Virus record (IMG/VR): IMGVR_UViG_3300050029_000088
Location: 1-63,489 of that record
Direction: 5' to 3' (one strand)
Source: a virus
DNA: 63,489 nt
The notes beneath the pieces are model-generated. The model was given only the letters and a program-made list of their open reading frames with translations. It was not told the DNA's origin and searched no databases. Positions 3,459 to 57,688 of the stretch are shown here, piece after piece. Both the position numbers and the translations under genes were made by a program. Numbering within the stretch: the first letter of the stretch is position 1; each line of letters opens with the position of its first letter.

Positions 3459-4397
3459 CTATGCCACGGAGTCTACCACGCCGCGCCGAGCGCGGAGGGG
3501 TTCCTCCTGCGCGAGCAGGTCGAGCGCCTCGGCCCGTCGCGTCTTGATCGTGTTGGGAGACAGCGGCTTTCCCTTCGGCCCCTTGAGTACGTGAGCGATG
3601 TCCTCCGCGCTCATCGGCGGCTTGCCGGTCAGTCCGAAGCTCATCTCGATGATCCGTTGAAGCTGGCGGCTCGGCACGCGATTATCCCACTCGTCCAGCC
3701 GCGCCACGTACGCGAGCACGTAGGTCGGCGCGTCGATTCCGGCGGGCCGCGTCTCGGACGGCCCGAGGTCGGCAGGGTCTTCGGCGTGCGGGTCAGGCGT
3801 ACCGTCGAGCATCGTCTGCGTGAAGTCGTCGCCGTACATCTCGCGGTCGAGCGAGGTCACGACCTCGGCCGCGTCGAGCGCCCGCTCGATGTTCGCGAGC
3901 GAGATGTCCATATCGGCCGCGAGCGCCACGAGCGTCTGCTCGGAGTCGCGCGTCAGCGCCGCGCGAGCCTTCGCCCGTCGACCGGCGACGTGCGCCGGGA
4001 GCCGGATCGCTGAGCCCCCGCTCGTGAGCCCCCGCTGGATCGCCTGCTTGATCCATAGGGTCGCGTACGTCGAGAAGCGGATGTTGCGCTCCGGGTCGAA
4101 CTTGCGAGCGGCGCGGTCGAGCCCGAGGATGCCGTTCTGAATCACGTCCCCCATCGGCAGTCCTCGGTTGCGGTAGTACCGCGCGATGTTGCACACGAGC
4201 CGGATGTTGCAGTTGACTAGCTCGTGTCGAGCGCGGCACGAGGGGCACGTCGAGCAGGCGTGTTCGAGGTTCTTCGAGTAGACGCGGCGGGCCACGCGAC
4301 CGAGCGACTTCTCCTCCTCGGCGGAGAGCAGCCGATGGTCGGCTGCCGCATTGAGGAAGCGCACCAAACCTTCGTCATCACGCACGCCGGGAAGCAT
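3459..4397 (-). CDS. Phage-encoded sigma-70-like RNA polymerase sigma factor
   Basis: A 312-residue protein. Region 1.2 is near residues 9-38; region 2 contains LVNCNIRLVCNIARYYRNRG, GDVIQNGILGLDRAARKFDP and FSTYATLWIKQAIQR (core binding and -10 recognition). Region 3 has IRLPAHV, and a poorly conserved region 4 ends in an HTH-like segment. A cysteine cluster (CSTCPSC, about 48-54) interrupts regions 1.2 and 2.1, which is unusual and could bind metal. It presumably redirects host RNA polymerase to phage promoters; the class II TANNNT boxes are candidate targets (inference). Confidence 0.88.
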   Translation of the reverse strand: MLPGVRDDEGLVRFLNAAADHRLLSAEEEKSLGRVARRVYSKNLEHACSTCPSCRARHELVNCNIRLVCNIARYYRNRGLPMGDVIQNGILGLDRAARKFDPERNIRFSTYATLWIKQAIQRGLTSGGSAIRLPAHVAGRRAKARAALTRDSEQTLVALAADMDISLANIERALDAAEVVTSLDREMYGDDFTQTMLDGTPDPHAEDPADLGPSETRPAGIDAPTYVLAYVARLDEWDNRVPSRQLQRIIEMSFGLTGKPPMSAEDIAHVLKGPKGKPLSPNTIKTRRAEALDLLAQEEPLRARRGVVDSVA

Positions 4398-8554: not shown

Positions 8555-8885
8555 GTGTCAGATTGGCTAGTTCAAGAATCTTGAGGGCACGCGATGTCTT
8601 GAGAGTCAGGTAGGGAAGAAGAAGCGGGATAGTGGTGCGGCAAGCAATACCGCCGTTGATACTCCACGCCCAAACTATGCTTCCTGACGATGAGCGCGTC
8701 TTGCACTCGCGCAGAGAGCCTCCGAGCACTCGTTGAAGCTTGCGAAGTGGAATCGGGCTCGTCTGCTGAGCCGAAACGGAAACCTGAACTCGACGTTTTG
8801 TGATGCTGACCGTAAAGCACCCCTCCCCGTCTAGGAACCCGGCGCACCATGCAAGATCAACTTTAGACCGGCGATAAAGTCTCAT
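8448..8885 (-). CDS. LAGLIDADG homing endonuclease
   Basis: 145 residues. The first LAGLIDADG helix is LAWCAGFLDGEGCF near residues 11-24, with following strands FTVSITKRRVQVSVSAQQTS. One motif, so it probably acts as a dimer that cuts an intronless or gene-boundary site. Its AT content and codon use differ from neighbours, suggesting recent arrival. It overlaps an upstream 39-codon frame and the downstream gene remnant. Confidence 0.85.
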   Translation of the reverse strand: MRLYRRSKVDLAWCAGFLDGEGCFTVSITKRRVQVSVSAQQTSPIPLRKLQRVLGGSLRECKTRSSSGSIVWAWSINGGIACRTTIPLLLPYLTLKTSRALKILELANLTHERGRKGKPSGYTKTETAARNRLLVELVGRSQPLE

Positions 8886-8982
8886 CGGGAATCTTTCTCT
8901 TTTGGCCTCGGAGCGCCAGTTCTAGCTCTCGGTTCATTCCTCCCCCTCCGGTTTCGATGACTTTCTCAAGCATAGCACTCAT
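8863..8982 (-). CDS. Short hypothetical frame, possibly the 5' part of a split gene (39 aa)
   Basis: The ATG at 8982 overlaps the preceding stop (ATGA). It ends 22 nt inside the endonuclease gene. An internal GGAGGGGGAGG before a second Met suggests a ribosome site. Its last residues (KRKIPDE) would read naturally into the DLIGYEFEG of the fragment at 8258, the basis for proposing one original gene. Confidence 0.45.
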   Translation of the reverse strand: MSAMLEKVIETGGGGMNRELELALRGQKRKIPDETLSPV

Positions 8983-9116
8983 CGGCCCGCCGTTGAGATG
9001 ATCGCCGTCGCGTGCTGGATCATGGCGACGTAGGGAGCGAGCAGGTGAGGAACGCCCACCTTCGCGGCGGCAACTGCCGCCGCCGTGATGAACCCGTAGG
9101 AGATAGCGTTGGTCAT
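8979..9116 (-). CDS. Small hydrophobic protein (45 aa)
   Basis: The ATG at 9116 overlaps the upstream stop (ATGA). Ala-rich amphipathic sequence (FITAAAVAAAKVGVPHLLAP), probably membrane-associated. No family recognised. Confidence 0.6.
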   Translation of the reverse strand: MTNAISYGFITAAAVAAAKVGVPHLLAPYVAMIQHATAIISTAGR

Positions 9117-9325
9117 GCCACCTGCCGACGGCGCTTCGCAGCTTCCCTAACCCAGCCGGACTGACCTCGCGGCCCGTGAGGGGCAGCAGCCTTCTCGTTC
9201 GAGCACCCGTGGAACGCCCGGCAGCACACGCCCGAGCAGAACGGGTCTTTGATGCACGACTCGGGACGCGGCCCCCTGCACTGCGAGCAGAGCCCGTCCC
9301 GCCGGAGCCGAGGATCAGTCCTCAC
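9113..9325 (-). CDS. Small cysteine-rich protein (70 aa)
   Basis: Residues 13-41 carry C-x2-C, C, C-x3-CC and a later C, like a zinc knuckle. The C-terminal tail is basic (REAAKRRRQVA). Overlaps both neighbours. Possibly nucleic-acid binding. Confidence 0.55.
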   Translation of the reverse strand: MRTDPRLRRDGLCSQCRGPRPESCIKDPFCSGVCCRAFHGCSNEKAAAPHGPRGQSGWVREAAKRRRQVA

Positions 9326-9530
9326 GGAGCGCCGCCTCGGTCGCGGCGGCGCAGGCCCGCATGTGAGACGCCGTTGCCGCGTGGCGAAGCCGATCCTGTA
9401 GCGCGGCCAGCCTCATCTTCTCCTCGGCCGTCGTGTCGGCGTACGCTTCGAGCGCCGATACCGCCGTGATGAGGTCGAGGATTTCCCCGTGGCGGAGGGG
9501 GACGTTCACGTTGTCGGCTCCGGCCCTCAT
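9315..9530 (-). CDS. Hypothetical protein (71 aa)
   Basis: Start at 9530, overlapping the upstream stop (ATGA). Largely helical: LDLITAVSALEAYADTTAEE and KMRLAALQDRLRHAA. No motif recognised. Confidence 0.6.
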   Translation of the reverse strand: MRAGADNVNVPLRHGEILDLITAVSALEAYADTTAEEKMRLAALQDRLRHAATASHMRACAAATEAALRED

Positions 9531-9670
9531 TCGCCCGCGTTCTCGATGGCGTTGTCGAACTCGGAGCGCAAGCTGTCCTCCGTGTTGCCCTCCGTGTCGA
9601 GGAACTCCGCGACTAGGGATTGGAACTCCTCGAACCACTTGATGTACCGCTCGTCATCGTACTCACGCAT
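9527..9670 (-). CDS. Small acidic helical protein (47 aa)
   Basis: Start at 9670, overlapping the primase-helicase 3' end by 8 nt. Acidic and helical (MREYDDERYIKWFEEFQSLV). Conserved function unknown. Confidence 0.6.
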   Translation of the reverse strand: MREYDDERYIKWFEEFQSLVAEFLDTEGNTEDSLRSEFDNAIENAGE

Positions 9671-12281
9671 TTGTTGCCTCCTCCGTGTTGAGATTGAGCC
9701 CGAGCACGAGATGCGCTCGGACGGGGGTGAAACTAGCAGGCGGGACGACGTGCTCGCCCGCGCCATCCGGGCCGGACTCGACTTCGTACCGCTCGCGTAA
9801 GTAGGCGAGCATCGCGCGGCTACGGCCCGGCAGTTGAATGTCGAGCTTCTCCCGGTCGATGATCGCGCAGACCTGGACAGGACGTATCCACGTCCCTCGC
9901 CCGTCGGGATCAGTCCACACAGCCGCCTCTTTGCTCCTCATCGCCGCGCACTCGTGGAGCGCCGTTTCGTAGACGTTCTCGCGCTCGTGGCCGGGGCTTT
10001 CGACCTCGAAGCAACTGAGGTCAGGCTCCGTCGGGATGGCAGGAACGTCCTCGCCGTTCGCGGCGCAGTGCGCGAGGTAGGCGGCGAGCGTGGCCCAGCC
10101 CGCGAGCAGCACGGCGCGGTTGTATTCGGGGCGGGTTGGTTGGGCCGGGCCAAGAGGGGGAAGACCCTTCGCCTCGAACGCGAGCCACCGATGCAGCCCC
10201 TCACCGAACCGCTCGATGGGGGAGAGGTTGATGTAGTTGAGCGCCCGCACGTTCTGCGCCGCCTTGCTCGGCTGGATCACGACCGTCCGGTCAAGCTCGC
10301 GGTCGAGCGTGAAAGTGTCCTCCCCGGCGACGATCACGGGCGCGAGCATCGAGTATGTCGTGGAAGATAGGTCAGCCTGCCCGCGCTCGGCGCGGCCTCC
10401 GGTGTAGAGCACGGGGATGATCCCCTGCAACTGCTCGCGTGTCTCCTTCTTGGACAACCGCGTCCACTCGTCCACGAAGATCGGCAGGCTCCGGCTCGCG
10501 GCGAGCGTGCGTAGCAGGATGAAGGGCGTGTTGGCCGCGAGGTCTATCTCGATCTTGGAGCCCATGAGTCGGGTGCCGAGCTTGGCGAGCGTCGACTTGC
10601 CCACGCCGCTACTGCCACCGATGAACAGGAGAGGGAACTCCTCAACCTCGGGGCGGCGGGCGCTCGCGACTAGCCACGCGAGCAGCGGGTGCGTGACCTC
10701 GGATGCGGACAGGGCGAGGAAGGCCGAGAGCCACGGCCAGTAGAACGCCCCGGTGTCCTCCTCGTTGCGCTTCCTGCTCGGAAGCCAGAGCCGGTCTGCC
10801 ACGTCCGCCGCGCGAACTCCCGGTGAGTACCGCCACGGCACCTTCCCGACGTACGTGTCTCCCGCGTAGACAACAGACTTCCCGGCGTCTTCGTAGAACT
10901 CGGGAGCGTCGTGTATGCCGACCTGCGTCGTATGGAAAATCTCGGGGCAGACGGAGCCGAGTGCCTCGACTAGCTCCGCGATGGCCTTGCGGTCGTTGTC
11001 CGTGCCGGTGAAGATCAGGTCGTTCTTGTTGGCCCACTTGACGAGCGCCTGCACGGAGCCGAGGTCGGCCAGCAGGATGACGCCCGGCCTCGGCTGCCGC
11101 CGATGGTGGACGGTCACGTCGAAGCCGGAATCCTCCGAGCCCGAGAGCTTCGCCACCGGGTCGACCGTCCAGTTGGTGAAGCGGTGCGGGATGCCGTCCG
11201 CGTCGGTCTTGTAGTAGCCCCTGCCGTGGGGCGCGGCTGCGATCCTGGCATCGTCGGGAGCGCCGACCGGGGACTTGGCCCGCCCGAGCAGGCGGCGCAG
11301 CCCGCCGCGTGAGAGCCCGCAGGCCCGCAGGTCTTGGTCGAGCGGGAGGATGCAGACACGCACGTCGCCGTGGCCTTCCTCGTTGAGCGCCTTGATCCAC
11401 GCGCGGGTCGCGTTGACTCCCGCCGCGTCCGGGTCGAAGGCGAGGTAGAGCGTGCCACCCCGCCCGAGGAAGCCGAGTTGCTCCGGCGTCGGCGGTCGCG
11501 CGGCCCCGGATGGCAGAGCGAAGATGTCGATGGCGATGGACTCCTCGGCCGCGAGCCATCCTGCGACCACGGCGTCTGACTCACCTTCGGTGAGTAAGAC
11601 ATCCGAGTGCCGCCGCCCGAGCCATGATCCGTAGAGCGCGACGTACTTGGAGCCGGGCAAGGAACCCTTGCGGACTCCCAGCCGCGTCTTGCATCCCGTC
11701 AGGGTGCCATCCTCCGTCCAGTGCGGCATGTAGATCGTGCCGGTAAGGGGGTCTAGCCCCCATCCCCACGTCGTCCGAAGGTACGCATCCCAGCGGTACG
11801 CCTCCGTGATTTCGGTGTCAGAGTTGACAAGCCGCGTCCATACTGACAACTTGCCGTTAGACTCCTCGGCCTTCGCGGCTGCTTGCGCGGCGGCGACTTC
11901 CGATTGCCAGTCGGCAACCGTGGGCTTGATGCGAGGCTCGATGCGCGGCGGCTCGTAACCCGGCGGAAGGTCGGCCAGCATCCGAGCGGCGACAGCCTGA
12001 GACTCGGGGAAGCCGACGGACTGCTTGCGCTGGATCAGGTCGAAGATGTCACCGCCGAACCCGCACGGCTGGCACCACCAACGCATGATCCCGTCGTCGC
12101 CCTCCCATAGATAGTAGGAAGGGTCAGTGTCATCATGGAAGGGGCAGTGGCCCCGGCCCTCCCGGTCGAGCGGGATGCCGAGCCGGTGCGAGACGTAGGC
12201 CATCGAGAGCCGGGCGCGAAGCTCGTCCTTCGAGGGGATGTACGGGATGCCGTCGTTGCCGTCGTCCAGCTTGCGAATCAT
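9663..12281 (-). CDS. Primase-helicase
   Basis: 872 residues combining both activities. A CHC2-type zinc site is at 46-73 (C46, H49, C70, C73 in HCPFHDD...CQPC), followed by a TOPRIM domain with E232 in LLTEGESDA and DPD at 283-285. A C-terminal ATPase has Walker A GGSSGVGKST at 555-564 and Walker B IFVDEW at 601-606. It would unwind the fork and lay down primers for the family A polymerase. It sits early in the minus-strand operon, overlapping both flanking genes. Confidence 0.88.
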   Translation of the reverse strand: MIRKLDDGNDGIPYIPSKDELRARLSMAYVSHRLGIPLDREGRGHCPFHDDTDPSYYLWEGDDGIMRWWCQPCGFGGDIFDLIQRKQSVGFPESQAVAARMLADLPPGYEPPRIEPRIKPTVADWQSEVAAAQAAAKAEESNGKLSVWTRLVNSDTEITEAYRWDAYLRTTWGWGLDPLTGTIYMPHWTEDGTLTGCKTRLGVRKGSLPGSKYVALYGSWLGRRHSDVLLTEGESDAVVAGWLAAEESIAIDIFALPSGAARPPTPEQLGFLGRGGTLYLAFDPDAAGVNATRAWIKALNEEGHGDVRVCILPLDQDLRACGLSRGGLRRLLGRAKSPVGAPDDARIAAAPHGRGYYKTDADGIPHRFTNWTVDPVAKLSGSEDSGFDVTVHHRRQPRPGVILLADLGSVQALVKWANKNDLIFTGTDNDRKAIAELVEALGSVCPEIFHTTQVGIHDAPEFYEDAGKSVVYAGDTYVGKVPWRYSPGVRAADVADRLWLPSRKRNEEDTGAFYWPWLSAFLALSASEVTHPLLAWLVASARRPEVEEFPLLFIGGSSGVGKSTLAKLGTRLMGSKIEIDLAANTPFILLRTLAASRSLPIFVDEWTRLSKKETREQLQGIIPVLYTGGRAERGQADLSSTTYSMLAPVIVAGEDTFTLDRELDRTVVIQPSKAAQNVRALNYINLSPIERFGEGLHRWLAFEAKGLPPLGPAQPTRPEYNRAVLLAGWATLAAYLAHCAANGEDVPAIPTEPDLSCFEVESPGHERENVYETALHECAAMRSKEAAVWTDPDGRGTWIRPVQVCAIIDREKLDIQLPGRSRAMLAYLRERYEVESGPDGAGEHVVPPASFTPVRAHLVLGLNLNTEEATNA

Positions 12282-33178: not shown

Positions 33179-34213
33179 ATGAACGATGACATCGCCGGGC
33201 AGACGCCCGAGGAGGACGAGCTTCTCAAGGCAGCCGAGGAGCTTGGGATCGACCTGAGCCCGAAGGACGGCAACCTCGACGGCAACGGAGACGACCTCGG
33301 GCCGACGGGGGCTGCCGGGCCAGCAGGATCATTCGGCGCACCGGGGCCGAGCGGCAACATCGGCGCACCGGGTACTCCGGGGCCGACAGGGCCGACGAGC
33401 GCAGCCGACAATCTCGGAGCGCATCTCCTCGGTCGCGTGCCGTCCACGCCGGATGCTCGTGACTTCAAGATCGAGATGCTCCTGTCGACCGACCCGGCCG
33501 ACGTGATCCTCTCCAAGCTGCTTGCGTCGAAGTCCGTGGCGCAGGCGACGAAGGACTGGGCGGCGTTCTGGACTCCTGCCCTCAAGACCATCGGGGGCAA
33601 GCCGATTCCGCCGCCGACGCCCTCGGGGAGCAAGCTGTGGGCCGACGCCGAGGTCGTGCTCGATCAGGGGCAGACCCCGCACTGCGGCGGCTTCGGGGGC
33701 TGCCAGTTCGGGAACACCGATCCGGTGGACGACAAGTACGGCAACCCGGACGGCGAGAAGCTCTACTACGAAGCGAAGGTCATCGACGGCGAGCCCAATC
33801 AGGAGAACGGCACGTCCGTTCGCTCGGTCGTGCAGGCGCTCGTCAACCGAGGCCGAGTCGGAACGTACGCCTTCTCGACCAACATCGAGACGCTCAAGAA
33901 GTTCGTTCTTACGAACGGCCCGATCATGGTCGGCTCGGATTGGCTCGACGGCATGTTCACTCCCGACGCCAACGGGTACGTTGTGCCGACCGGCAACGTC
34001 GCGGGTGGGCACTTCTACTTGCTCCGGGGATTCCTCCCCGCGATCCCGAGCCCGCAGGGCGTGCCCTTCGTCGTGAAGGAGGACACGTTCGCCTTCCTCA
34101 ACTCGTGGGGGCCGAACTGGGCCGCGAGCGGCTACTTCTACATGACCGTCAAGGACTTCGCCTCGGTCTTCGCCAACGGCGGCGAAGCGTGCGCGGCGGT
34201 CGAGCTTCCGTAG
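33179..34213 (+). CDS. Papain-like cysteine protease with collagen-like segment
   Basis: 344 residues with an AAGGAGG ribosome site. Residues about 40-72 are Gly-x-y triplets (GPTGAAGPAG, GAPGTPGPTG). The protease domain has a QTPHCGGFGG active-site Cys region (about 165-174), GGHFYLLRGF with the His (about 279) and FLNSWGPNW with the Asn (about 306), the C1A papain triad order. Probably secreted or virion-attached and acting on host surface proteins. Followed by a strong terminator. Confidence 0.8.
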   Translation: MNDDIAGQTPEEDELLKAAEELGIDLSPKDGNLDGNGDDLGPTGAAGPAGSFGAPGPSGNIGAPGTPGPTGPTSAADNLGAHLLGRVPSTPDARDFKIEMLLSTDPADVILSKLLASKSVAQATKDWAAFWTPALKTIGGKPIPPPTPSGSKLWADAEVVLDQGQTPHCGGFGGCQFGNTDPVDDKYGNPDGEKLYYEAKVIDGEPNQENGTSVRSVVQALVNRGRVGTYAFSTNIETLKKFVLTNGPIMVGSDWLDGMFTPDANGYVVPTGNVAGGHFYLLRGFLPAIPSPQGVPFVVKEDTFAFLNSWGPNWAASGYFYMTVKDFASVFANGGEACAAVELP

Positions 34214-34240
34214 CCTCAACTGACAACACGCAAGGCAAAT

Positions 34241-34270
34241 GAAAGAGCCCCGCCGCAGCGGGGCTCTTTC
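34241..34270. terminator. Bidirectional terminator
   Basis: GAAAGAGCCCCGC-CGCA-GCGGGGCTCTTTC, 13-bp stem with A/T flanks on both sides. It serves the protease gene from the left and the minus-strand tmRNA-like RNA from the right. 34271-34345 otherwise holds nothing recognisable. Confidence 0.82.
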
Positions 34271-34345
34271 TGTTGCCTCTGAGTGTTCGGTACTGTCCCT
34301 TGTTGACTCTAGGCCGGAATACCTCCTTTGTCTCGGGGTCACAAG

Positions 34346-34425
34346 TGGAGACGGGCGGACTCGAACCGCCGTCCGGCGCAGTCCCGCGTGCGGGCTTTCT
34401 GGCCGTCGATACCTGTCTCGTCCCC
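34346..34425 (-). ncRNA. tRNA-sized tmRNA-like RNA (mini-tmRNA)
   Basis: On the minus strand the RNA begins GGGGACG and ends CGUCUCCA, a 7-bp acceptor with a G3-U pair as in tmRNA/tRNA-Ala. Positions 11-23 (CAGGUAUCGACGG) align base for base with the tmRNA 5' domain of E. coli ssrA (C11, G13-G14, UCGACGG). The T-arm is GGCGG-UUCGAGU-CCGCC. Between them are only about 30 nt (a GGCCAG/CUGcGCC stem capped by CCCG-CACG-CGGG) in place of the usual ~300-nt message/pseudoknot body. CCA is not encoded. Transcription should begin at G1. Confidence 0.65.
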
Positions 34426-34431
34426 GTGGGT

Positions 34432-34437
34432 AGTCTA
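34432..34437 (-). promoter_or_regulatory. Class II promoter for the mini-tmRNA, TAGACT
   Basis: TAGACT on the minus strand, 6 nt (ACCCAC) before the GGGG 5' end at 34425. Confidence 0.65.
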
Positions 34438-34450
34438 GCGCGGGCTAGCC

Positions 34451-34530
34451 GTCCGAGCCGCCGGGACTCCAACCCGGCGCAGACACGCACCTGCCCGCAA
34501 GCACGCGCTGCTCTGTCCGTTGACCCGGAC
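34451..34530 (-). ncRNA. Degenerate tRNA-like structure
   Basis: GTCCGGG/CTCGGAC could form an acceptor, TCAACGGACAGAGCA resembles a D-arm, and CCGGG-TTGGAGT-CCCGG resembles a T-arm with C56 changed to G. No convincing anticodon arm. Probably the 3' domain of the neighbouring giant RNA or a decayed tRNA. Confidence 0.3.
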
Positions 34531-34538
34531 GACCAATC

Positions 34539-34624
34539 CTCCCGCGCGACCGGCCCGACGAGGCGAGAGCGGCCATCGGCCGTATGCAGCCCCGCTACTG
34601 AGCGGGCGTTCGGTCACGCGGAAA
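34539..34624. repeat. RNA module copy 1
   Basis: Plus-strand CTCCCGCGCGACCGGCCCG, a variable hairpin, then CGCTACTGAG, GGGCG, CGGTCACGCGGAAA. The outer parts form a GCGACCG/CGGTC-type helix. Shares 18 of 19 leading bases with copy 2. Confidence 0.65.
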
Positions 34625-34696
34625 CTCCCGAGCGACCGGCCCGTGAGCACTGCCCTTGTGCGGGCTCGCTACTGTGGGCGCTCGGTCGCACGGAAA
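34625..34696. repeat. RNA module copy 2
   Basis: CTCCCGAGCGACCGGCCCG, a different hairpin, then CGCTACTGTG, GGGCG, CGGTCGCACGGAAA. Conserved ends with changed interiors indicate a repeated RNA domain. Confidence 0.65.
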
Positions 34697-36155
34697 ACGT
34701 GGGTCGCGTCGAGGGGAGGGACGGAGCCTTGAGCGGCTCCGGCAGCCGTTAGTCTGCGAAGGGGGCGCGGCGTGTACCTCAACGATCCGGGCATAGCCCA
34801 GGCAGTCGTTGGCCCAACCCTCCTAGAACACGCCAAGTTCGTCTTCTCGGCGCGACCGTGCTCAAGATGTATCCCCCGGTGGGGCGCTTGGTCGACTGCG
34901 ATCAGGCGTCTTACGTCGAGCCTACCGGGGGACGGGGCGCGGCGCTCACCCCGGCTCGCGGCGACCAACCGCAAGGAGTACCCGAGGGAGCGCCGAACTC
35001 ACCCGCCTCACGGCCACAACCTCTTACGGAGGGGCCGCGTCTACGGCGGGCGAAGAAGAACAGGAGCCCGTAACACTCAGAGAGGGATACGTGATGGCGG
35101 AACCGACTCGGTTGCGGAACGTCTGACGACGCACGCAAGCGGCCAGCACGCCCTTCGGCATGGCCCTTCATGTAGTGCGCAGGGTGGCGGCGAGCTTTCT
35201 CCGGCGTCCCGGTTCGTGACGCTCGCAGGCAGCCTGCTTGGGCTCCTGATTCGGGGACGGCGGAGGGGGCGGCATCGTTCCAACGGCTTGCCCTCTCTTA
35301 CCTCACGACTAGACCGTCCATACAGCCGGGCGTTGAGCTTTCTTCCCCGGCCTAAACTTGGTGGAAGCTCGGCTTGAAGCAGAGCACGTACTCTAAGAAG
35401 CACCGCGACCGAAGTCCGGTTTGTGAGCAGCCGAAGCCGAAGCCCCTTTGCCTGAGTTGCGTGCCCGGCAAGAACGCAGGGGATCGAACCCGCCGAGCGG
35501 ACGGTTTCTGCCCCGCCACCCTGTAGCCCGAAAGTCTCTGCTTCAAGCCGAGATTTTTCGAGACGCTCGATGAAGCGGACGGTCGCGCCGTCGCCGTCGC
35601 CTACCCTCCCCGGATCGTTGCAACTCCCCGGATACTCTCGGCTCAAGCTCGGACGTGTTACCGCTTCACTCGCCTTACCGTTCACTCTCCACGCACCTTC
35701 ATTCAGGGATCGATCGGTTGTCCGCGCGAGCTTCGCGCTCGTTCTCCGAGTCGTGGTCGTTAGCCGTCAGGGTGGTTTCGCAGAGCTACTTGCGACGGTG
35801 CCTCACGAGCGGACGGCACCGTGGCAAAAATCACGGGACATCAAGCGCACCCTGACTGGGAGCCAGAGCACGAATACCGGCGGGGCCGAGAAGCACCGTC
35901 CGCTTGCGAAGGGCGACAAGCCAAACCCGCACACGTCACGCGACGACGGCGCTCGAATGGGAAGTCTCCAATCTCCCCCACGAAGAACCAAGCCGCCGCG
36001 CGGCCCGCGCAAGCGCGAGCACCGTCGGAACGGTCGCTCTCTCCGAGAGAGAGGGAAGAACCGCCCGGAACCCGAGTGTCCGACGCCTGGCGGTGGCGGC
36101 GAGGGGAGGGGAGAGGGAGAGAGGCCCGACTCGACAACCCCTTGCTTGCACTCTT

Positions 36156-36199
36156 AGTATCGACTATTTGACCCCGCTTCGCGTCCCCCTTTCGAGGGG
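36156..36199 (-). promoter_or_regulatory. Class I promoter for the giant RNA
   Basis: Minus strand: palindrome CCCCTCGAAAGGGG (36199-36186), G, ACGCGA, 17 nt, GATACT (36161-36156), 6 nt, predicted +1 at 36149. Same spacing as the other class I promoters. Confidence 0.68.
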
Positions 36200-36215
36200 T
36201 TCTATGTAAAGTCGA

Positions 36216-36237
36216 AACGGCCCCTTTCAGGGCCGTT
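36216..36237 (-). terminator. Terminator hairpin after the LPxTG gene
   Basis: AACGGCCC-CTTTCA-GGGCCGTT, just downstream of the minus-strand operon ending at 36259. Confidence 0.65.
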
Positions 36238-36258
36238 CCTGGCCTGGCGGAGACACCC

Positions 36259-36408
36259 CTACGCCTGGCGTCTTGGAGCGATCCGGCCGAGTGCGAACCC
36301 CGCGCCGATGAGCGCGAAGGCCGCGAGCACAATCCAGCCGAGCCCCAGCCCGGTGAATGGAAGCGTCCCGACGATGGCAGCCGGGCCGAGCGTGTTCGCG
36401 TGATACAT
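36259..36408 (-). CDS. LPxTG sorting-signal mini-protein (49 aa)
   Basis: The ATG shares a base with the glycosyltransferase stop (TGATG). After about 15 residues it reads LPFTG, a hydrophobic helix (GLGWIVLAAFALIGAGFAL) and a GRIAPRRQA basic tail: a complete sortase cell-wall sorting signal with almost nothing before it and no separate signal peptide. If recognised by a host sortase it would be a tiny wall-linked or sortase-occupying peptide. Function unknown. Confidence 0.7.
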   Translation of the reverse strand: MYHANTLGPAAIVGTLPFTGLGLGWIVLAAFALIGAGFALGRIAPRRQA

Positions 36409-37445
36409 CACCAATCCTCCCCTCGTCTAAGTAGAGCCCCGGCGTAGGCGTACGCCTGGACGACCTGCAAGAATGAATCGTACAGGAACTCGGGCACGAG
36501 AGCGGCCCCCACGAGCATCATCCTCCACCCGCGCTCGCGCACGGTCACAGCCCGCTCGACCATGAAGATGCCTGAGACTCCGATCCAGAGAGGGTGCAGG
36601 TGCATCCCGACGATGGCCCCGTACACGAGCGAGGCGAAGTAGCCGACGGTCACGAGGATGCCTGCGAGCGCGAGCGCCTGTCGTCCCCAGTACGGTGCGG
36701 TTAGCCGGTTGAGTCCGTACTGACGAAGGTTCTCGAACGCGCCGCGCTTCCATCGGAGCCGCTGCCGGGCGAGGTCGCGCCACGTCGGCATGACCTCGGT
36801 CGTCAGGACGCAGCCCTTCGGGCTCAAGACGTGGTGGCCGAGCGTGCGCAGGGCGAAGGTCATCTCGTTGTCCTCGGTCAAGACCGTCGTGTCGTAGACG
36901 AGCCCGCGAGCGCCCGGCAGCCGCGTCCCGCGCTCGTGTGCGACCTCCTGCAAGGCCGAGACGCAGAAAGCGGTCGCGGTGCCCGTGAGCACGAGGCAGC
37001 GGCCCTTGAGCCGCGCCACGTCGCGGGCGTAGCGGGCGTACTCGTTGCGCTGGCACATGCCGAGGAATCCCGCGCCGGGCTGCCCTCGGAAGTTGCCTCC
37101 GACGGCGGAGTACCCGTGGCCGAGGTAGTCGAGCGCCGTCTTCACGAAGCTCGGCGCGAGGATCGAATCGGCATCGACCACGAGCACGACATCGAATGGC
37201 TCTAGCTGCCCGAGGCCCACGTCGAGCGCCTGATTCAGTGCGCCAGCCTTCTTGTCCCGATTGCCGACCGTGCGGATGAGGCCCACGTCGCCACGAGATA
37301 GCACGATCTGTTCTGTCTCGTCCGTGCAGTTGTCCGAGACAACGAATGTCTCATCCGGCGGGCGTGCCTGAGCCGCGAGGGCGTCGAGGCACGCGCCGAT
37401 CCCGGCTTCTTCGTTGTGCGCCGGGATGAGGGCGACGACCCTCAA
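36408..37445 (-). CDS. Membrane-bound family 2 glycosyltransferase
   Basis: 345 residues; the TTG start overlaps the upstream stop (TTGA). GT-A domain: VVALIPAHNEEAGIGACLDA, VSDNCTDET, VVDADS (DxD), TEDNEM and QRLRWKRGAFENL (QxxRW), the processive GT2 signature. Three or four C-terminal membrane helices follow (ALALAGILVTVGYFASLVYG and others). Resembles hyaluronan/poly-GlcNAc synthase-like enzymes. It could modify the host surface to exclude other phages. Confidence 0.82.
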   Translation of the reverse strand: MRVVALIPAHNEEAGIGACLDALAAQARPPDETFVVSDNCTDETEQIVLSRGDVGLIRTVGNRDKKAGALNQALDVGLGQLEPFDVVLVVDADSILAPSFVKTALDYLGHGYSAVGGNFRGQPGAGFLGMCQRNEYARYARDVARLKGRCLVLTGTATAFCVSALQEVAHERGTRLPGARGLVYDTTVLTEDNEMTFALRTLGHHVLSPKGCVLTTEVMPTWRDLARQRLRWKRGAFENLRQYGLNRLTAPYWGRQALALAGILVTVGYFASLVYGAIVGMHLHPLWIGVSGIFMVERAVTVRERGWRMMLVGAALVPEFLYDSFLQVVQAYAYAGALLRRGEDW

Positions 37446-57615: not shown

Positions 57616-57688
57616 GACGGTCACGTAGCTCAGATAGGTAGAGCGCCGGGGCACCGGAGGTCGCGGGTTCGAGTCCCGCCGGGGCGTC
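57616..57688 (+). ncRNA. tRNA-like RNA lacking a normal anticodon loop
   Basis: The D-arm (GCTCAGATAGGTAGAGC) and T-arm (GCGGG-TTCGAGT-CCCGC) are perfect, but the anticodon arm is CCGG-GGCA-CCGG, a 4-bp stem with a 4-nt loop, about five bases too short. The ends GACGGTC and GGGCGTC pair imperfectly. A promoter places +1 at the first base. Either a decayed tRNA or a functional tRNA mimic. Confidence 0.62.

Follow-up and report, generated by a model that had tools for sequence, protein, structure and literature searches.

The window analysed here is the whole 63,489-nt virus record IMGVR_UViG_3300050029_000088. Its longest non-coding run, as judged by codon-phase GC, extends from about 34220 to 36440. 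The median codon-phase GC spread is 0.06 in the 34.4-36.2 kb interval, against a genome median of 0.30, and strong periodicity resumes in the flanks, with a peptidase-like gene on one side and a glycosyltransferase gene on the other. This flat profile rules out protein coding on either strand of 34451-36199, where a preliminary description, made from the letters alone, had likewise seen no credible gene. The same description had placed a promoter at 36156-36199, pointing into the stretch, and a recurrent cassette was indeed found there on the minus strand. It consists of CGATACT with a CCCTC..GAGGG dyad about 32 nt upstream, and seven copies, on both strands, are present in the genome. The predicted start is near 36149, and the phage's own sigma-70-like factor (3459-4397, Sigma70_r2 E=9.5e-17) is perhaps the reader of the cassette. 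The positions of the cassette and of an intrinsic terminator define a predicted transcript of 1.9 kb, from about 36149 to 34241.

36156-36199, minus strand: promoter cassette, with dyad CCCCTCGAAAGGGG (36199-36186) and -10-like GATACT (36161-36156)
14905, 40536, 52951, 53301 (plus strand) and 39064, 36162, 14845 (minus strand): copies of the cassette
34241-34270, minus strand: intrinsic terminator with a 13-bp stem
34241-36149, minus strand: predicted non-coding transcription unit of about 1.9 kb (promoter, terminator, no codon periodicity)

The 1.7-kb region originally delimited (34451-36199) therefore stands, with the unit lengthened to about 36149-34241, and codon-phase GC, cassette and terminator agree on a sizeable non-coding unit on the minus strand, headed by a promoter type that recurs in the phage and with its transcription predicted. 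Close relatives of the whole 1.9-kb unit were not found: a capsid search returned a single match at 93%, on a 4-kb contig that lacks the region, together with 48-55% relatives whose records are without the domain A RNA described below, and a glycosyltransferase search gave no match. By its DNA polymerase, the window phage looks like an actinobacteriophage.

Several other features of the genome were recorded. The plus-strand interval 33179-34213 encodes collagen-like repeats fused to a papain-type C1 peptidase domain. A minus-strand 51-aa ORF (36259-36414), which has no Pfam match, contains LPFTG, a hydrophobic stretch and RR near its end, like a sortase anchor signal. An RNA ligase gene lies at 1910-2626 on the minus strand (PF09414, E=1.2e-14), and a tRNA called by Rfam (40.4 bits), not by ARAGORN, is found at 57619-57687 on the plus strand, adjoining an opposite-strand tRNA-Gln.

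Domain A is a member of a phage RNA family

The 5' third of the 1.9-kb unit contains a domain of about 330 nt, domain A (35905-35573), which has relatives in many other phages.

35573-35905, minus strand: domain A, phage RNA family member (covariance model, blastn, family covariation)

In blastn, domain A aligns with the member L018 at 82% identity across 129 nt and at 85% across 59 nt. Against phages, essentially one piece (35804-35750) was matched, which is intergenic in about 190 Bixzunavirus mycobacteriophages, and a 20-mer from the domain is present in 23 IMG/VR contigs. Looser DNA patterns widened the set to about 32 distinct members after removal of duplicates, among them Bixzunavirus and Myrnavirus phages, with the shared blocks CUGACGGYUAACGAYCACG and GCGAYCCCUGAAYGAA. 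A covariance model built from 17 members scored others that it had not been built from, such as L007, L023, L012, L003, L065, L066 and L068, at 90-172 bits, and a divergent one, L064, at 61 bits; the window itself, which is part of the model, matches at 35818-35571 with 179 bits (cmsearch). The family is widespread in phages and absent from Rfam 15, and no description of it was found in the open PMC set. An exact 18-mer occurs in 0 records of bacterial genomes, and the four bacterial matches to a looser pattern, at 12.4 bits or less by the covariance model, were treated as chance. The plasmids searched gave no match to domain A, and the actinophages Settecandela, Big4, Mimi and Kurnik gave none to the family.

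In most other phages domain A stands by itself as an RNA of about 280-420 nt, found in one copy per record and, in most members, within a non-coding gap of 270-730 nt. A second apparent place in each Bixzunavirus record corresponds to the two arms of the RNA's own closing helix and not to a second copy. Sigma-70-like promoters lie upstream of that helix, P1, in several members. The downstream genes that were compared are unrelated and share no common gene family, which, together with the single copy per record, fits a trans-acting RNA. A tmRNA-like gene comes after the RNA in L022, and a tRNA in L019; a tmRNA over the Rfam cut-off is found, as a raw count, in 5 of the 20 carrier records searched. 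Long stretches of low periodicity also surround the RNA in L027 (about 8800-10100), L038 (0-1500), L022 (4150-5524), L012 (9000-10900) and L020 (8650-11650, where lower GC makes the measure weak), all in RNA-strand coordinates. Outside domain A, the window island shares no sequence with the non-coding islands of other carriers.

Consensus structure and covariation of domain A

The alignment of 25 members gave a consensus structure in which a long closing helix, P1, is followed by P2/P3, P4, P5, P6 and P7.

35809-35805 / 35664-35660, minus strand: helix P2, 4 of 5 pairs formed in the window, family covariation
35800-35795 / 35673-35667, minus strand: helix P3, 6 of 6 pairs formed in the window, family covariation
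35775-35771 / 35697-35693, minus strand: helix P4, which contains hairpin P5 and the invariant block UGACGGCUAACGACCACG
35753-35745 / 35718-35711, minus strand: hairpin P5, family alignment and covariation

Compensatory change is found in 52 of the 63 predicted pairs, a count that related sequences inflate. With the structure held fixed, 88.3% of cells pair, compared with 63.1% in shuffles, and 371 cells are changed on both sides, compared with 121. The covariation proposed as a check at the outset is strong, with a score of 0.636 against 0.194 in shuffles (about 0.1 when the partners are slid by 1-3 columns), but it concerns one domain only, 35905-35573. Two pairs of P3 are U-G in 17 and 19 of the 25 members; the opposite strand would give C-A at these positions, which indicates that the RNA is on the minus strand of the window, the same as the promoter. 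Two unpaired blocks, UGACGGYUAACGAYCACG and CCCUGAAYGAA, are nearly invariant.

Hairpin P7 has a self-complementary loop

The last hairpin of the consensus, P7, has a 4-bp stem and a loop of the form GGA-N8-GAA/U.

35610-35631, minus strand: hairpin P7, stem 35631-35628 / 35613-35610, loop GGA-GUUGCAAC-GAU
35617-35624, minus strand: loop octamer GUUGCAAC, proposed homodimer contact, self-complementary in all examined members

The stem forms all four of its pairs in the window, and the four covary in the family (CCAC/GUGG in L005, CCGC/GCGG in L045). N8 remains self-complementary in all examined members while its letters vary: it is GUUGCAAC in the window and in L065, CGUGCACG in L041 and, one column off, in L026, and GUGCGCAC, GUGGCCAC, GCUGCAGC, GUCCGGAC or GGUGCACC in others; some members have GGUGCAUC, with a G-U pair. 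Six-letter palindromes are found in L012 and L046 (AUGCAU) and in L064 (GUGCAC). In 22 of the 25 aligned members a single column block holds a perfect palindrome, of six types altogether; two more members have one with a G-U pair, and in one it is displaced by a column. Elsewhere in the alignment no block is comparable, the next best having three types in four sequences. The patterns used for collecting members never included the P7 loop.

The innermost neighbours of the octamer flip from CG to GC in 11 of the 25 members. As this innermost pair is made of adjacent nucleotides, a single chain cannot form it. Between L038 and L043, 7 of 286 positions are different, and four of these make up the palindrome core, which changes from GGCC to CCGG. 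Members with GGC rather than GGA on the 5' side of the palindrome have A rather than G as the first letter on its 3' side. Since the letters of the octamer change and its self-complementarity is kept, including that of the middle neighbours, selection for self-pairing between two RNA copies is indicated. A hairpin loop that stays self-complementary, with covarying adjacent nucleotides, is what a kissing loop presents, and the P7 octamer is very probably the signature of a homodimeric one, the RNA being a dimer; dimerisation in the cell would follow by inference. The palindromic loop indicates a dimer at most, not an oligomer or a scaffold role.

In the Myrnavirus-type members L014, L015, L028 and L039 an extra hairpin, GGGGAGUCAUGACCCC or close to it, presents another palindromic loop, GUCAUGAC. 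With two loops able to self-pair, RNAs could be joined into chains or larger assemblies.

The window copy of domain A

The window copy forms P2-P7 and the palindrome; the canonical P1 does not form.

35895-35905, minus strand: candidate P1 5' arm AAGCGGACGGU, 11/11 complementary to its partner ACCGUCCGCUU at 35583-35573

The complementarity of AAGCGGACGGU and ACCGUCCGCUU suggests that P1 is kept in the window, with an insertion of roughly 85 nt, in the presence of competing partners. The segment AGCGGACGG (35904-35895, minus strand) has three complementary copies of CCGUCCGCU, at 35816-35808, 35583-35575 and 35505-35497. This arrangement might reflect a switch or a duplication. Because P1 is rearranged, the window copy could be degenerating; the palindrome, however, is intact.

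tRNA-like elements and predicted domains downstream of domain A

The tRNA-like RNAs that had been noticed next to the stretch are represented by an Rfam tmRNA match close to the 3' end of the unit, preceded by a second tRNA-like element.

34343-34425, minus strand: tmRNA-type tRNA-like domain of 83 nt, Rfam tmRNA (RF00023) 57.7 bits, cut-off 47
34438-34547, minus strand: closed tRNA-like element, T-arm-like hairpin GCCGGG-UUGGAGU-CCCGGC, predicted 22-bp closing helix

The score and the fold of 34425-34343, in which a short closed arm lies between acceptor stem and T-arm, identify it as a tmRNA-type tRNA-like domain. In common with tmRNA it has the acceptor stem, the T-arm and an analogue of the D-loop. 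The arm closes after 24 nt, at the place where a message-like part of about 316 nt would be, and the message-like part with tag frame and pseudoknots is absent from the domain. Read from the sequence, the third pair of the acceptor stem is G-U. Such a pair is the alanine determinant of tmRNA and tRNA-Ala. A longer tmRNA call by ARAGORN, with another 5' end than the Rfam call, is probably wrong. One DNA pattern found no other copies of the domain in viral contigs. The element at 34438-34547, which neither ARAGORN nor Rfam calls, has a folding z of -4.5 on the minus strand and -1.7 on the plus strand. The segment UCUCGCCUCGU (34568-34558) can pair with 34427-34416 on the minus strand, the 5' strand of the acceptor stem of the tRNA-like domain, and this pairing would mask that stem.

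Three further domains were predicted between domain A and these elements.

35365-35555, minus strand: domain B, about 190 nt, predicted 17-20 bp closing stem (inverted repeat 95%)
35061-35248, minus strand: domain C, predicted branched, pair probabilities near 1; z -4.3 minus, -1.9 plus, for a region chosen from the fold itself
34589-34938, minus strand: domain D, predicted long branched rod, pair probabilities near 1; z about -4 on both strands

The stretch had been described as full of helices. This holds for 34401-34700, where folding energy is significant, and for some sub-domains, which were picked from the fold itself, but not for much of the remainder, as z is near 0 for 35200-35800 and the 5' part. 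Folding energy is a poor guide here, because domain A itself is not singled out by single-sequence folding (z only -0.24). The tetraloops said to make sense only on the minus strand do lean that way in stems of 4+ pairs (UUCG 3, UCCG 1, CUUG 1), but one UUCG is on the plus strand, and these numbers are small. Relatives of domains B, C and D and of the element 34547-34438 were not found, and their predicted structures have thermodynamic support only; comparative support within the 1.9 kb is limited to domain A and the tmRNA-type 3' end.

A probable homodimerising RNA within a larger unit

On balance, the locus is probably a minus-strand unit of about 1.9 kb with a homodimerising member of a phage RNA family, for which a structural scaffold role is the favoured guess. 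In most phages, the domain A RNA would act in trans as a molecule of its own, about 280-420 nt long, whose ends are closed by the long terminal helix. Two copies would pair by the palindromic loop of P7, in a symmetric kissing loop, to give a homodimer, or, if there are additional contacts, a homo-oligomer of more copies. Such a structural RNA would be made during infection and act as an RNA scaffold like OLE, ROOL and GOLLD; this scaffold role during infection is drawn by analogy and is put forward tentatively. In the window phage tRNA-like elements follow domain A, and the tmRNA-type domain would need excision from the transcript.

How the rest of the unit relates to domain A admits two readings. 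We lean slightly towards an RNA operon, a precursor cut into the dimeric domain A RNA, the tRNA-like elements and a mini tmRNA-type RNA: domain A is self-contained in other phages, and a tmRNA-like gene (L022) or a tRNA (L019) can come after it. Domains B-D, about 900 nt, would then be spacers, yet parts of them look structured. The preliminary description had proposed instead one giant RNA of about 1.7 kb. A large non-coding unit does exist, with one promoter, one terminator and continuous non-coding sequence; branched domains are predicted downstream of domain A, non-coding islands of more than 1 kb surround the RNA in other carriers (e.g. L027, L038), and enclosed cargo would have a parallel in the linkers of GOLLD and ROOL. 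That the whole 1.9 kb is one functional RNA, in which domain A oligomerises and the rest is body or enclosed cargo, is nevertheless improbable: relatives are known for the 330 nt or so of domain A and for the tmRNA-type end only, a tRNA-like domain is normally excised from its precursor, and in most phages domain A stands alone. Still less probable is the specific form in which this giant RNA homo-oligomerises via P7 while its 3' elements, tRNA-like and tmRNA-type, serve as cargo or decoy host trans-translation.

Three other explanations concern domain A itself. It could be a ribozyme or a protein-binding RNA, the kissing dimer being just one feature, as the nearly invariant unpaired blocks resemble an active or binding site; with no Rfam ribozyme match and no shared protein neighbour this is rather unlikely, and it would leave the dimer intact and challenge only the scaffold role. 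A cis-acting, riboswitch-like leader of the next gene would agree with gene starts about 60-110 nt from P7 in several members (e.g. L016, L018, L036), but the genes that come next are unrelated, P1 closes the RNA and no gene follows in the window, which makes a leader very improbable. Equally hard to sustain is a role at the DNA level, whether as an origin, as a recombination site or as an operator bound by a dimeric protein at the palindrome: the single copy per genome and the palindromic octamer are compatible with it, but the octamer changes freely while remaining self-complementary, unlike a protein site, and the U-G pairs of P3 and the promoters upstream in several members favour an RNA read from one strand.

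For the preferred reading, a homodimerising RNA, the family offers a practical system. M. smegmatis mc2 155 is the isolation host of the Bixzunavirus mycobacteriophages, about 190 of them sequenced, that carry the RNA, so that deletion, imaging and assay are feasible, and the role of self-assembling RNAs in phages becomes testable in a standard mycobacteriophage system.

Comparison with known RNAs

A kinship with GOLLD and ROOL had been suggested for the stretch. As a kind of RNA the comparison holds, but membership does not: the Rfam models of GOLLD, ROOL, OLE and HEARO gave no match in 34200-36300 at E values up to 10, which excludes membership in any of the four, and no Rfam match to GOLLD was found in the domain A relatives at gathering cut-offs.

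Three natural RNA families form RNA-only homo-oligomers (Kretsch et al. 2025, PMC12286853). The palindrome-covariation argument was used there for L9.3 of OLE and L21a of GOLLD, and it agreed with cryo-EM (Kretsch et al. 2025, PMC12286853). Like the domain A RNA, GOLLD is a non-coding RNA carried by phages, frequently close to tRNA genes, and its symmetric kissing loop is backed by palindrome covariation at adjacent nucleotides; unlike the domain A family, mostly of 280-420 nt, it is often longer than 800 nt and assembles into a cage of 14 copies (PMC12286853). The window is likewise a phage record with a tmRNA-type domain in the unit; among family members, a tRNA or tmRNA adjoins the RNA in L019 and L022, not in most. 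ROOL is also a phage and prophage RNA, with quaternary kissing loops and often near tRNA islands (PMC12286853), but the domain A family has different helices and no covariance-model match to it. OLE is a homodimer, as the domain A RNA probably is, and has a palindromic loop in which an internal tetranucleotide covaries (PMC12286853). It differs in that it belongs to the cells of extremophilic bacteria and not to phages, and in having protein partners; no match to it was found.

Compared by description, phi29-type packaging RNA uses two different loops and forms a ring on the portal, whereas the self-complementary P7 would give pairs rather than rings. The HIV-1 dimerisation initiation site presents a palindrome in a purine-flanked hairpin loop and forms a homodimer by kissing. 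Its palindrome is of 6 nt and belongs to a viral genome RNA, and the likeness carries no claim of homology. The domain A family is thus unrelated, by Rfam model, to GOLLD, ROOL and OLE, is much shorter than GOLLD, and has a very clear self-pairing signature.
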